Positions 19,657 through 24,521 of a stretch of 37,417 nucleotides of DNA are shown here, piece by piece. The stretch comes from an uncultured Thermoproteales archaeon. Its GTDB lineage: Archaea; Thermoproteota; Thermoprotei; Thermoproteales; Thermoproteaceae. The translations under genes and the position numbers were made by a program. The stretch lies in contig CALJAK010000006.1 in the NCBI GenBank assembly GCA_938027595.1, positions 1 through 37,417 on the forward strand. The letters run 5' to 3'. The notes below the pieces were generated by a model. That model was not told the DNA's origin. It saw nothing but the letters and a program-made list of their open reading frames with translations, and did not search any database. Positions within the stretch are counted from its first letter, which is position 1, and every line of letters begins with the position of its first letter.

Positions 19657-20450
19657 TACCGCTTTTCCAAAGCGGCCACCTCCCGCACCAACGCCCCCGC
19701 CACGTCGACGCCGGTGGCTCTCACCAACGCCTTGAATTCCGGAATTCCATTCACTTCATTGACGTACAGCCCGTCGCCTATTAGAATGTCTACCCCAGCG
19801 TAAAACGCACCGACGGCTTCCGCAGCTTTCACAGCCAACTCCTCTAACTCGCTGTCTATCGCTTGCGGCACCGTCGCGCCGCCTCGGGCGGCGTTGCTAC
19901 GCCAATCGCCAGCCGGCGGTATTCTCCTCATAGCCGCCACAGCTCTGCCGTTGATTACGAAAACTCTAATGTCCTCGCCGGTTCCCACCATCTCCTGCAA
20001 CATGAGGACTTCCCCCTCGGCTGACTTCAGAACTAACTCAAGCTCCTCCCGGCTAGTCACTAGAGCCACCTTGCGGCCCCAACTGCCACTCACAGTCTTG
20101 ACGATAGCTCTGCCGCCGATCTCCACGTCGGCGCTACCGAAGAGAACGCTAGTCTTGGGAGTGGGCAACCCGGCGGCTCTGAGTTTCGTGAGAGCAATCG
20201 CCTTGTTCCAACAGAGATACATGGCTGAAGTTGAGTTTATGGCGACGCCGCCGTTCCCCTCCACCGCGGCCGCTGTGATAATGCCCTTGTTGTGACTGAG
20301 AGTTCTCACTAGATAAACCCCAGGCGTCCATTGACTCAAATCCACAGCCTCCCCCACTTTCCGCACCGCCAGCGCAACGCCGAGTTGCTCCGCCGCTTTT
20401 ATCACCATCTTCTCCTCTTCTCTAACCACGTCGTACACTAACGTCACCAC
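19656..20450 (-). CDS. lysX: LysX/ArgX-type ATP-grasp ligase (LysW-dependent lysine/arginine biosynthesis)
   Basis: LysX and ArgX attach aminoadipate or glutamate to the C-terminus of the carrier protein LysW. The 264-residue product (RimK-like ATP-grasp) shows AIVKTVSGSWGRKVALV (about 113-129), the adenine loop MLQEMV, FVINGRAVAAMRR, and the metal-site NEVNGIPEFKAL near the end. The context, immediately after carAB, points to arginine synthesis; the motif alone does not decide between lysine and arginine, and one enzyme may serve both. The start is GTG 20450 or GTG 20447, the latter giving a GTGA overlap with carB. No LysW gene is visible in the window. Confidence 0.85.
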   Translation of the reverse strand: MVTLVYDVVREEEKMVIKAAEQLGVALAVRKVGEAVDLSQWTPGVYLVRTLSHNKGIITAAAVEGNGGVAINSTSAMYLCWNKAIALTKLRAAGLPTPKTSVLFGSADVEIGGRAIVKTVSGSWGRKVALVTSREELELVLKSAEGEVLMLQEMVGTGEDIRVFVINGRAVAAMRRIPPAGDWRSNAARGGATVPQAIDSELEELAVKAAEAVGAFYAGVDILIGDGLYVNEVNGIPEFKALVRATGVDVAGALVREVAALEKR

Positions 20451-23400
20451 GGCTCTACTTTCAAAACTCCCTCACTATACCACATAAAGGCTTTAGCTAA
20501 CTCCACCGCCAACCTCGGCTCTAGGACAAGCGGCGTGTTGGTATCCGCAGCGGCTCTCCTTATGTGGAAATCTCTCTCTGGCGTGACTCCAGAAGTAAAC
20601 ACAATGTCTATCTTCCTCCACTTGAGCATATCCACCACCCCCGGCCCCAACTCCTCGGGCGTGTAGACTCTAAACTTAGACGAGAGTATAGACGCCACCG
20701 CCTGCACCCACTCCCGATCTACGTCGTAAGTGTAAACCAAAGCGGTGCTCTTCGGCAGTCTGTTAGGCGTCGCCGAGAGCCAACTCTTGAGGAGAGCCTC
20801 CTCGAAAGTAGAGCCGTTAGCCGCCACTTCGCCAGTGCTGTACATCACGGGCCCCAGCCGCGGGTACGCCCCCCTCAGTCTAGACCAGGAAAACTGCGGC
20901 GACTTCACCCACCACTTAGACGGCTTCAACGTGACTACCTCTTCGTCCACCGCCAGTCTGCCGTTAGTGAGGACGTCGGCTGTGAGAGACATGTAGTTGA
21001 CGCCGGTGGCTTTGCTCACGAAAGGCATAGACCTACTCACTCTCAAGTTGGCCTCAATAACGTAAACACCGCCGTCTATCAAAAACTGGACGTTCATGGG
21101 CCCCCTCACTTCCAGTTCTCTAGCTATAGAGTGAGTCACCTCCACCATCTCTCTCACTTGCCCCACCTCCAACCGCCTGTTGGGGAGCACCATAGTGGAG
21201 TCGCCGGAGTGCACCCCAGGCGGCTCTATGTGCTCCAGCGGCGTGGCCACTAGCCTCACGCCGTCTGACACTGCGTCTACCTCAGCCTCAATCCCACGCG
21301 GCATGAATTTAGACACCACCACGGGGTACCTACCGCTGACTTTGGCGGCGGAGTTGAGGAATTGCACTAACTCTCTCTCGTCTCTAGCTACAGCCATATA
21401 CGCGCCGCCCAACACGTAGCTGGGTCTCACGAGGACTGGGTAACCCAACTCCCCCGCGAGTTTTATAGCTTCCTCCACAGACGCCGCCGTGAACCACGTC
21501 GGTTGTCTTATGCCGAGTTTGTCCAACAGCTTGGAGAACTTCCGCCTGTCTTCAGCCACATCTATGGAGCTGGCTCTAGTGCCCCCCAGTTTCACTCCCC
21601 TGTTCTCCAGCTCTAGGTACAACCGCTGTCCGATTTGACCACCGGCGTACAACACCACCGTGGCGTCTTTCTCTCTCTCTACAATATCCAGAATTCTCTC
21701 GACAGAAATCTCGTCGAAGTATAATTTATCTACCACGTCCCAATCTGTAGAGACAGTCTCCGGGTTGTAGTTAAGTATCGCCACTTTGTAACCACGGTTT
21801 CTCAACTCAGTGGCTAAATTCACAGTAGACCAGTCAAACTCCACACTCACGCCGATTCTAAACACTCCAGCCCCCACTACCAAGAAATCCGCCTTCGGCG
21901 TTGGGTCGTCTGAAACACCGCCATATGTGAGATACAAGTAATTAGTGTCGGCAGGCCACTCACCCGCCAACGTGTCTATTTTTTTGACTACCGGCTTTAC
22001 GTCTCTACCTTTGAGCAATTCGTCGGGAAACCCCAACCTCTTAGCTTCCACAACGTCTACCTCCCCAGCCTCGATCGATTTGTACGTCTCTACAATACGG
22101 TTTATTGCGTTTAGGAAGAATTTGTCTACCTTAATCAGGCGGTGTATTTCGTCTATAGAAACGCCGAGGTAAATAGCTTTAGCAGCACAAATGGGCCAAT
22201 ACGGCTCATATTTCTCTAGACATCTCAACGCGGCCTCTCTATCCAACTCCTGGAAGTACCTCCCCCCAACTAACCCAGGCTCGCCGATGTCTATAGCTCT
22301 AGTCGCCTTCTGCCACGCCTCCTCCAACGTCCGCCCAATGCCCATAGCTTCACCGACTGACATCATTTCGGGCCCCAACCCCTCCGAAATGCCGAAACGT
22401 TGGTTTTCCCACCTTGGGTGTTTCACCACTATGTAATCCAACGCCGGCTCGAACGCAGCGACAGTGCGCCTAGTCACAGTGTTTAAAACCTCGTCCAACC
22501 TATACCCCAGCGCTAGTTTTGCCGCGACGTACGCCAGCGGATAGCCAGACGCTTTCGAAGCCAAAGCGCTAGAGCGAGACATGCGGGGGTTAGTCTCTAT
22601 GGCGTATTGCCTCCCCTCCCCCACCGCCACTTGCACGTTGCCCTCGCCCACTAACTCAATTGCTCTAACCACGCCGATGGAAATATCGCGAGCTGTTTGG
22701 TACTCCTCATCAGTCAAAGTGAGACAAGGGGCTACTACGATGGAGTCGCCAGTGTGTATCCCCATGGGGTCTATGTTCTCCATGCACACCACGGCGGCTA
22801 CGTTGTCGTATGCGTCTCTCACCACTTCGAACTCAACCTCTTTCCACCCCTCTAGATATTTCTCCACCAACACCTCCCCAATGGCGGATTGAGCGAAAGC
22901 TTTATACGCCTTCGTCTTGAGTTCCTCCCTATTCCTAGCTACAAACGCCCCAGCTCCGCCTAAGTTGAAACTAACTCTCACCACCACTGGGTACCCCAAC
23001 TCATCGCCGATAGACAAAACTTCTTCAAGCGACTTGGCGGGGCGGCTGGGGGGTATGGGTATCCCGGCGTCTCTCATAGTTTTTTGGAAGAGGTCTCTAG
23101 ACAACGCTTTCTTTATCCCACTTATTGGAGTACCCAAGACTCTAACGCCGTACTTCTCCAAAACGCCTCTTTCGTCTAGCTCTACACATGCAGACAACGC
23201 CGTCTGGCCGCCGAAGCCGCAGACTATGCCGTCTGGCCGCTCGCGCTCTATTACTTCGGATACGAATTGTATCGGGACGAAATACACTCTATCCGCCATG
23301 AGGCGAGACGTTTGTATGGTGGCTATGTTGGGATTCACCAAAACTGTCTCTATCCCCTCTTCTCTAAACGCCTTGAGCGCTTGCGAACCCGAGTAGTCGA

Positions 23401-23458
23401 ATTCCGCAGCTTCCGCAATTTTGATAGCGCCCGAGCCAATGATTAAAACTTTCTTCAT
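20444..23458 (-). CDS. carB: Carbamoyl-phosphate synthase large subunit
   Basis: CarB makes carbamoyl phosphate from ammonia (delivered by CarA), bicarbonate and two ATP, for arginine and pyrimidine synthesis. The 1004-residue protein has two homologous ATP-grasp halves: the first opens with VLIIGSGAIKIAEAAEFDYSG and contains PVVVRVSFNLGGAGAFV and ETNPRMSRSSALASKA, the second opens near residue 528 (VVGAGVFRIGVSVEFDWS) with PVLVRPSYVLGGAYMAV and EANLRVSRSMPFVSKATG. The C-terminal MGS-like regulatory domain is short (about 95 residues) compared with E. coli (1073 aa in total). ATG 23458 overlaps carA by ATGA. Confidence 0.95.
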   Translation of the reverse strand: MKKVLIIGSGAIKIAEAAEFDYSGSQALKAFREEGIETVLVNPNIATIQTSRLMADRVYFVPIQFVSEVIERERPDGIVCGFGGQTALSACVELDERGVLEKYGVRVLGTPISGIKKALSRDLFQKTMRDAGIPIPPSRPAKSLEEVLSIGDELGYPVVVRVSFNLGGAGAFVARNREELKTKAYKAFAQSAIGEVLVEKYLEGWKEVEFEVVRDAYDNVAAVVCMENIDPMGIHTGDSIVVAPCLTLTDEEYQTARDISIGVVRAIELVGEGNVQVAVGEGRQYAIETNPRMSRSSALASKASGYPLAYVAAKLALGYRLDEVLNTVTRRTVAAFEPALDYIVVKHPRWENQRFGISEGLGPEMMSVGEAMGIGRTLEEAWQKATRAIDIGEPGLVGGRYFQELDREAALRCLEKYEPYWPICAAKAIYLGVSIDEIHRLIKVDKFFLNAINRIVETYKSIEAGEVDVVEAKRLGFPDELLKGRDVKPVVKKIDTLAGEWPADTNYLYLTYGGVSDDPTPKADFLVVGAGVFRIGVSVEFDWSTVNLATELRNRGYKVAILNYNPETVSTDWDVVDKLYFDEISVERILDIVEREKDATVVLYAGGQIGQRLYLELENRGVKLGGTRASSIDVAEDRRKFSKLLDKLGIRQPTWFTAASVEEAIKLAGELGYPVLVRPSYVLGGAYMAVARDERELVQFLNSAAKVSGRYPVVVSKFMPRGIEAEVDAVSDGVRLVATPLEHIEPPGVHSGDSTMVLPNRRLEVGQVREMVEVTHSIARELEVRGPMNVQFLIDGGVYVIEANLRVSRSMPFVSKATGVNYMSLTADVLTNGRLAVDEEVVTLKPSKWWVKSPQFSWSRLRGAYPRLGPVMYSTGEVAANGSTFEEALLKSWLSATPNRLPKSTALVYTYDVDREWVQAVASILSSKFRVYTPEELGPGVVDMLKWRKIDIVFTSGVTPERDFHIRRAAADTNTPLVLEPRLAVELAKAFMWYSEGVLKVEPW

Positions 23459-24480
23459 AACATCTTCACAAATTTGTCAAATACCCAACGAGTGTCGCGG
23501 GGGCCTGGAGAAGCCTCCGGGTGGAATTGCGTAGTTAAGACTGGCGGATTTTCGCAGTAGAGCCCCTCCACAGTGCCGTCGTCTGGCTGGACAGCCCACA
23601 CTTTCAACTTCTGGCCGTCTCTCACCGCATAGCCGTGGTTGTGTACCGTGATGTAGACCTTGTCTGTAAACGCCAAATCTCTCACTGGCTTGTTACTAGC
23701 TCTATGTCCATACTTCATTTTGTATATCTCCCACTCAAAAGCCATAGCTGTTATCTGGTGGCCGAGACAAATGCCAAAGAGAGGTTTGCCGTACTCGAGG
23801 TACTGCCGCACTTTCTCCACAAGCGTGTCTAACAGCTTGGGGTTGCCCGGGCCGTTGCTTAAGAGTAACCCATCGCAATCGAAAGCCAACTCCGGGCGGC
23901 GGCACGGGACAACTCTCACTCTTACGCCTCTCTGTAACAACTCTCTCAAAATTGATTTCTTAACTCCGCAATCCACTACCCCCACGCACTTGTCCCCCTC
24001 CCCCAATTCCACCGGCTCTTTTACAGAGACGGAGTCTACGTAAGACACTTCGTCGTATTTCGGCGATTTTCTTATTTTCTCTAACAAAAACTGCGGTTCC
24101 TCAACGCCAATTGCCCCCATCATAACTCCATGCTCGCGTATTTTTTGGACTAGCGCTCTTGTGTCTACTCCAGCTATGCCAGGCACGCCAGAGGCAGACA
24201 GCCACTCCTCTAGAGACATGACCGATTTGTAGTGACTGGGTTTCGTGGCTTCAAACACCACCACTCCCTCCGCCTTGACGCCATCTGACTCCATTTGGTC
24301 TTCAGAAACGCCGTAGTTACCCACCAACGGCATGGAGAAAACGACAATCTGTCCCTTGTAACTGGGGTCTGTCAACGTCTGGGGGTACCCCACTACTGAA
24401 GTAGTGAAGATTACCTCGCCTACGGCTGTGGTCTCTGCCCCTATTGATATCCCCGTGTATACAGTGCCGTCTTCCAACAC
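23455..24480 (-). CDS. carA: Carbamoyl-phosphate synthase small subunit (glutamine amidotransferase)
   Basis: CarA hydrolyses glutamine and channels ammonia to CarB. The 341 residues (from GTG 24480) include the N-terminal LEDGTVYTG and GYPQTLTDPSYKGQIVVF segments, and the class I amidotransferase triad: nucleophile Cys in GICLGHQ, and His/Glu in QFHPEASPGP. The gene begins abruptly: relatives carry about 10 more residues before LEDG. GTG 24480 is the only start in frame after the stop at 24514-24516, and it has AGGAG 7 nt upstream. But the promoter points to ATG 24521 in another frame; one extra G in the G6 tract (24495-24500) would join the two. See findings. Confidence 0.92.
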   Translation of the reverse strand: MLEDGTVYTGISIGAETTAVGEVIFTTSVVGYPQTLTDPSYKGQIVVFSMPLVGNYGVSEDQMESDGVKAEGVVVFEATKPSHYKSVMSLEEWLSASGVPGIAGVDTRALVQKIREHGVMMGAIGVEEPQFLLEKIRKSPKYDEVSYVDSVSVKEPVELGEGDKCVGVVDCGVKKSILRELLQRGVRVRVVPCRRPELAFDCDGLLLSNGPGNPKLLDTLVEKVRQYLEYGKPLFGICLGHQITAMAFEWEIYKMKYGHRASNKPVRDLAFTDKVYITVHNHGYAVRDGQKLKVWAVQPDDGTVEGLYCENPPVLTTQFHPEASPGPRDTRWVFDKFVKML

Positions 24481-24521
24481 AAGATAACTCCTGGCCCCCC
24501 TATTGTTCGCCCCCTAGACAT
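24441..24521 (-). CDS. Possible 26-codon leader ORF overlapping carA, or displaced N-terminus of carA
   Basis: ATG 24521 lies exactly 23.5 nt from the centre of the minus-strand TATA-like box (24541-24548). It opens a 26-residue frame (MSRGRTIGGPGVILCWKTAL...) that runs out of frame across the carA start and stops at 24441, overlapping carA by 40 nt. Its first nine residues would make a natural CarA N-terminus if one G were added to the tract at 24495-24500. It is therefore either the true carA start broken by a one-base change or a genuine leader ORF. No homologue is claimed. Confidence 0.4.
   Translation of the reverse strand: MSRGRTIGGPGVILCWKTALYTRGYQ
24488..24492 (-). promoter_or_regulatory. 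Shine-Dalgarno-like AGGAG before carA GTG
   Basis: AGGAG on the minus strand ends 7 nt before GTG 24480. This is a rare visible ribosome-binding site at an operon head in a window where most first genes look leaderless. It would allow carA to be initiated internally if the transcript starts at 24521. Confidence 0.4.

Follow-up and report, generated by a model that had tools for sequence, protein, structure and literature searches.

Probable starvation-triggered −1 frameshifting at the start of carA in Thermoproteaceae, and a proposed regulon of like-built amino-acid genes

The window, the whole 37,417-nucleotide stretch of DNA analysed here, comes from a Pyrobaculum-type genome, the genus of which (g1) includes Pyrobaculum oguniense and strain WP30, and the question it raises is how its carA gene is translated. 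The carA frame contains no ATG, GTG or TTG from the upstream stop to the VLEDG motif, and relative to the ATG at 24521 the gene is open in the −1 frame (41 nt from this ATG to the V of VLEDG, i.e., 2 mod 3). The transcript start was predicted from the position of the TATA box to lie at or near the same ATG. A sequence-only reading of the window had described the TATA-like box, the out-of-frame ATG and the 26-codon frame opened by it, and all three were present as described, with the frame ending at 24441 (Table 1). That reading proposed a shift at a G6 tract (24495-24500) and named three options, namely phase variation, programmed frameshifting and internal initiation at GTG 24480. Since the carB ATG overlaps the carA stop, carB probably follows carA translation in the window.

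Table 1. Features of the carA locus in the window and slip-site leaders found in the Thermoproteus-type relative G014
Feature	Position	Strand	Genes and end-product codons	Remark
carA TATA box ATTTATATAT	24550-24541	minus		Seen in the sequence; same box and spacing in relatives
Leader frame 0, ATG TCT AGG GGG CGA ACA ... stop (MSRGRTIGG...)	24441..24521	minus		26 codons, seen in the sequence
Slippery tetranucleotide G_GGG	24510..24513	minus		Glycine codon in the P site: GGG 24512-24510; re-pairing possible with GGG 24513-24511, shifted back by one base
Proposed hungry codon (arginine), frame 0	24507..24509	minus	CGA	Directly after the slippery GGG
carA body, −1 frame, ANNRGARSYLVLEDG... to stop	23455..24510	minus		
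carB, carbamoyl-phosphate synthase large subunit	20444..23458	minus		ATG overlaps the carA stop (ATGA)
Arg leaders, G014			argG, carA, carB: CGA	
Leu leader, G014			leuA: CTC	
Val/Leu/Ile leader, G014			ilvB: GTC, CTC, ATC	
Ile leaders, G014			citramalate synthase: ATC; ileS: ATT	
Lys leaders, G014			lysX: AAA; homocitrate synthase lysS: AAA	
Thr leader, G014			thrC: ACA	
Trp leaders, G014			trpE, trpB2: TGG	
Phe leader, G014			pheA (prephenate dehydratase): TTC	
Tyr leader, G014			aroD-chorismate mutase (aroD-CM): TAT	
Tyr/Trp/Phe leader, G014			transketolase: TAC, TGG, TTT	
Cys leaders, G014			cysS: TGC; cysteine-synthase-like enzyme: TGC	

The start region of carA was compared in 19 genomes of the window's family, together with further genomes of the order and class. 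All 17 g1 and g2 genomes (Pyrobaculum- and Thermoproteus-type, respectively) had the TATA box, the near-5′ ATG, G_GGG_CGA and an out-of-frame carA. The distance from the ATG to the V of VLEDG was 2 mod 3 in 17/17, the shift needed was always −1, and in 14 of the 17 the carA frame lacked ATG, GTG and TTG between the upstream stop and VLEDG. Counterparts of the window leader MSRGR read MSKGR or MSQGR in relatives. Both g3 genomes contained ATG...GGGGCGA as in g1 and g2, followed by an in-frame ATG. The sequence-only reading had named a conserved GTG without leader homology in relatives as evidence against itself; the opposite was found, with the out-of-frame ATG conserved and the GTG lost. The G6 tract was not conserved either, and the invariant site proved to be G_GGG_CGA at 24513-24507, which was identical in 19/19 family genomes.

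At this site, most species' leaders align as ATG TCN NNG GGG CGA, and the codon preceding GGG is variable (AGG, AAG, CAG, TTG, GTG, and ACG) despite the invariant GGGG. Upstream of the site, the frame-0 codons varied synonymously with no stops, and the other frames showed 15 and 65 stop-involving codon pairs. Downstream, the carA frame showed 1180 synonymous and 874 non-synonymous pairwise differences, no stops, and the most variation at third positions, whereas the other two frames showed 1590-1646 non-synonymous and 161-282 stop-containing differences; all of these figures are pairwise counts between genomes and not independent events. In these alignments, coding constraint switches frame exactly at G_GGG_CGA. 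GGG GCG was identical in all genomes, and none of the 67 fourfold-degenerate columns in the carA body was invariant, which indicates that the site is held at the nucleotide level.

The locus thus combines overlapping frames, a G_GGG that allows perfect re-pairing, and conservation beyond the need of protein coding, as expected for programmed −1 frameshifting. Among the three options named beforehand, this is the one that the invariant site and the frame switch of constraint support. Instead of the classical X_XXY_YYZ heptamer with a downstream structure, carA has a single-codon slip site, and its leader is no more than 4-5 codons long up to the shift. No unusual folding was detected in four carA leaders, and no known RNA family (Rfam) matched at carA. 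The alternative structures and terminator of leader-peptide transcription attenuation were not seen at carA, where no stable structure was found. CGA encodes arginine, to whose synthesis carA contributes, and is the rarest Arg codon in the relative G014 (2.6 per thousand vs 34.1 for AGG), and this rarity would sharpen the response to arginine shortage.

Outside the window's family, carA was preceded by other arrangements. The devices were not uniform among the genera of f3, the other family of the order. In g5, the short ORF MMGRA lies in the leader ATGATGGGACGAGCATGA, and its stop overlaps the carA ATG; this leader also carries G_GGA_CGA and is strictly conserved in five species (L074-L077, L080). 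In g8, carA is preceded by ATG ATT CGG or ATG CTT CGG, and the shift needed to reach the gene frame is the opposite one. The g8 upstream regions (L078, L079, L081-L086, L093-L095; ATG CTT CGG is that of L079) are +1 out of frame, several have no in-frame start, and the Arg codon CGG is conserved. No out-of-frame leader of such a type was seen upstream of carA in g6 and g7, and carA of families f4-f14 had ordinary in-frame starts in nearly all cases. The carA gene was fragmented in several draft genomes (L020/L021 of G011, L093 of G038, L094 of G034, L095 of G039, and L096 of G030), probably as a result of assembly errors.

A family-wide search for the pattern of TATA, ATG and GGGGCGA also matched carB in five g2 genomes (leader MSAGR) and argG in four g2 genomes (leader MPSGR). 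The carB of Thermoproteus-type relatives is a stand-alone gene with an MSAGR leader of its own. Both argG and the carB of G014 lie in the −1 frame without an in-frame start. G014, a complete g2 genome of 1,995,394 bp, was then scanned as a whole for near-5′ ATGs combining an in-phase G_GGG and a short frame 0 with a long −1 frame. To rank the candidates, a promoter model was trained on 268 leaderless genes with ordinary in-frame starts; the cut-offs were a score of at least 7, a frame 0 of at most 25 codons, and closure of the gene frame no more than about 210 nt upstream. Genes were named by NCBIfam and Pfam scans, except carA and carB, which were named by similarity to the window genes. ARAGORN gave many doubtful intron-containing tRNA calls on G014, and these were left out of the analysis.

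The scan yielded 18 top leaders, 17 of which precede nameable genes, and the codon after GGGG corresponded to the end product in 17/17 (Table 1). The probability that 21 such codons all match by chance was about 1e-27 based on codon use after GGG, with the acceptable end products having been chosen after the genes were seen. As a control independent of gene names, the phase of GGGG was counted: where a strong promoter was followed by a short frame-0 ORF, GGGG was in the GGG-codon phase in 23 cases vs 5 and 3 in the other phases (of 341), whereas with longer ORFs the three phases were equal (25, 23, and 22 of 633). Genes serving several amino acids, ilvB and transketolase, carry several slip sites in a row, and the frame-0 stop often follows the end-product codon immediately, as in MASGW, MSAGR, and MSGCL. 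The trpS leader (TGG) ranked lower in the list. As judged from the reading frames, carA and about twenty other amino-acid genes of Pyrobaculum and Thermoproteus appear readable only with a one-base slip back at GGGG.

Several other loci of G014 were noted. The leader at -382014 (contig C1, minus strand, L146) contains G_GGG_AAA, G_GGG_CCA, and G_GGG_CGA, for Lys, Pro, and Arg, respectively, followed by a 222-residue frame that had no Pfam or NCBIfam match and is perhaps a Lys/Arg/Pro-related gene. A proC-like gene (contig C1 1817004, minus strand, L217) lies behind an ATG that is out of frame and accompanied by CCC_CCA, which may be the arrangement in a +1 form for proline. Two candidates were dropped on inspection by eye, +1444310 being within a gene and +618701 at the end of livG.

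Conservation of the other members was examined across genomes. G_GGG_CTC of leuA was present in 17/17 family genomes, the Val site followed by the Leu site of ilvB in 18/18 (one with G_GGA for Val, and often with a third site for Ile), and the trpE slip-site leader in 6/6 g2 genomes. For hisG, 16 genomes had CCC_CAT (His) in a +1 arrangement, often with an in-frame ATG also present. At least seven members occur in the window's own genome: carA (Arg), leuA (Leu), ilvB (Val, Leu), lysS (Lys), trpB2 (Trp), trpD (Trp), and thrC (Thr). An in-frame start was also found just downstream in ileS, trpS, thrC of the window's genome, some hisG and 4/5 carB, and another start is therefore possible in these genes.

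In f3, hisG is preceded by a short leader with a His codon (L340, L342, L344; also L341, L343, L345, and L346), such as MNNLQHT or MSLEHA, each ending in a stop. In most of them the leader stop overlaps or adjoins the hisG ATG (TAATG, TGATG; ...CATACCTAATGG), and this leader is possibly a related sensor acting by re-initiation. Upstream of leuA in f3 (L307-L313, L315), the element GGTGGGTTAGATTGCTCA or a close version of it is conserved near the presumed transcript start, with Leu codons in one frame.

What the sequences establish is a pattern: an out-of-frame start that is conserved, a slip site that does not vary, a change of frame in coding constraint, and codons that match the gene products. 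From this pattern we infer that slippage occurs on the ribosome and not in the polymerase, that it is driven by a shortage of charged tRNA, and the direction in which expression is controlled. Ribosomes would start at the near-5′ AUG (24521) and read AUG UCU AGG GGG. With plentiful Arg-tRNA, CGA would be decoded and frame 0 followed to its early stop, without production of CarA. With scarce Arg-tRNA, the A site would stay empty and the peptidyl-tRNA-Gly would shift by one base from its GGG to the overlapping upstream GGG, after which GCG would be decoded next and full-length CarA made (MSRG joined to ANNRGAR-SYLVLEDG...). The leader codons ATG TCT AGG GGG and the carA body would together give a 355-residue CarA starting with MSRG joined to ANNRGARSYLVLEDG. 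In the other members, G_GGG would be followed by the codon for their own end product, with three or four codons read before GGG. The control would have the expected sense, a negative feedback. One-tRNA −1 slippage at a limiting aminoacyl-tRNA needs a vacant A site only and no downstream structure (PMC8211752).

On this basis, it is very likely that carA is expressed via a starvation-triggered −1 ribosomal frameshift sensing charged arginine tRNA and is one member of a like-built regulon. It is also likely that codon-specific starvation frameshifting serves in Thermoproteaceae as a general amino-acid sensor, consisting of GGGG and an end-product codon at near-5′ starts. At a minimum, this sensor would govern several tRNA synthetases and the enzymes for Arg, Leu, Ile, Val, Lys, Thr, Trp, Phe, Tyr, and Cys; His, and probably Pro, would be served by a +1 form (CCC_CAT).

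Four other explanations were weighed against frameshifting. The leaders may act as regulatory peptides without any frameshift, with stalling or termination on the leader controlling re-initiation at the start of the main gene. The stop/start overlaps in f3, at carA (ATGATGGGACGAGCATGA) and hisG (...CATACCTAATGG), speak in its favour, as does the nearby in-frame start of some f1 members. However, carA, leuA, ilvB, and argG of f1 mostly lack ATG, GTG, and TTG in the gene frame, and re-initiation would need neither GGGG nor its phase; we regard this explanation as unlikely. Slippage by RNA polymerase, which would lengthen GGGG by one G close to the start of the transcript and restore the frame (cf. 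nucleotide-sensitive reiterative transcription), appears less likely still. In its favour, the G tract is some 8-12 nt away from the presumed start, one more G would mend the frame, and carbamoyl phosphate feeds pyrimidines too. When carA alone was in view, CTP-sensitive transcript slippage was considered, and it was dropped once leuA, ilvB, trpE, and others appeared. Polymerase slippage leaves unexplained the end-product codon after GGGG in leuA, ilvB, trpE, thrC, lysS, cysS, and others, the three sites in ilvB and transketolase, and the invariant second base of CGA.

A start of carA within the gene's frame, either at GTG 24480 or at some non-canonical codon, with the upstream ATG irrelevant, is very improbable. 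In the window, the V-L of VLEDG is indeed encoded by GTG and TTG, but the GTG is replaced by GTC, GTA, or GTT in most relatives, which excludes the internal initiation proposed earlier, and the upstream codons in the carA frame share no start-like codon while the out-of-frame ATG is strictly conserved. Sequencing error or a phase-variable G tract, conceivable for a draft genome of 24 contigs, can be dismissed, because 17 independent genomes, several of them complete, share the same out-of-frame state and G6 is not conserved.

Parts of the proposed frameshift mechanism have known parallels. In prfB, encoding release factor 2, bacteria use an autoregulatory +1 frameshift in which shortage of the factor serving the A-site codon triggers the slip and full product is made, closing a feedback loop. 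The carA-type arrangement would share this logic and differs in that prfB involves a stop codon, a release factor and a +1 shift in one gene, whereas here the shift would be mostly −1 on GGGG, at sense codons for many amino acids in many genes. The bacterial trp, his, and ilv attenuators and the T-box riboswitches likewise read charged-tRNA shortage via end-product codons or anticodons, and the ilv leaders serve multiple amino acids. Unlike these, carA shows no RNA structure or family, and the frameshift would fuse its leader with the enzyme. The fungal CPA1/arg-2 peptide, which stalls ribosomes when arginine is present, is encoded by an ORF upstream of the small-subunit gene of the same enzyme. 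The analogy to it drawn in the sequence-only reading would hold for the arginine response and fails for the mechanism, the fungal system being a stalling peptide without a frameshift; no sequence similarity to the carA leader is claimed.

A parallel to the slip itself is the hungry-codon frameshifting of E. coli studied by Gallant and colleagues, in which one P-site tRNA slips next to an A site left empty under amino-acid limitation (PMC8211752, PMC5009743); it differs in having been studied as error or in constructs. According to a 2016 review of frameshifting, no case was known in which hungry codons make functional trans-frame proteins for starvation (PMC5009743). A review of archaeal recoding names fucA1 of Saccharolobus solfataricus as the one cellular archaeal gene with a demonstrated −1 frameshift, besides some predicted cases (PMC8211752). 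The fucA1 case is likewise a programmed −1 frameshift and differs in its A_AAA_AAT heptamer inside the gene, its restriction to one gene and its lack of an amino-acid link. Hungry-codon slippage, prfB autoregulation and end-product codons in leaders are known separately, but their combination in an amino-acid-specific regulon is not known from any system. No earlier description of such a regulon was found in the literature searched, which comprised papers outside subscription journals and bioRxiv.

The arrangement makes it testable whether hungry-codon frameshifting can sustain the expression of essential genes, and it offers an expression switch that can be programmed by codon choice. In many biosynthetic genes of these archaea, the annotated start is probably wrong or absent. 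If the proposed mechanism is true, these archaea possess a naturally occurring regulon that reads amino-acid supply through ribosomal frameshifting itself, an archaeal counterpart of the bacterial attenuators and T-boxes that would work without a regulatory protein or an RNA fold.
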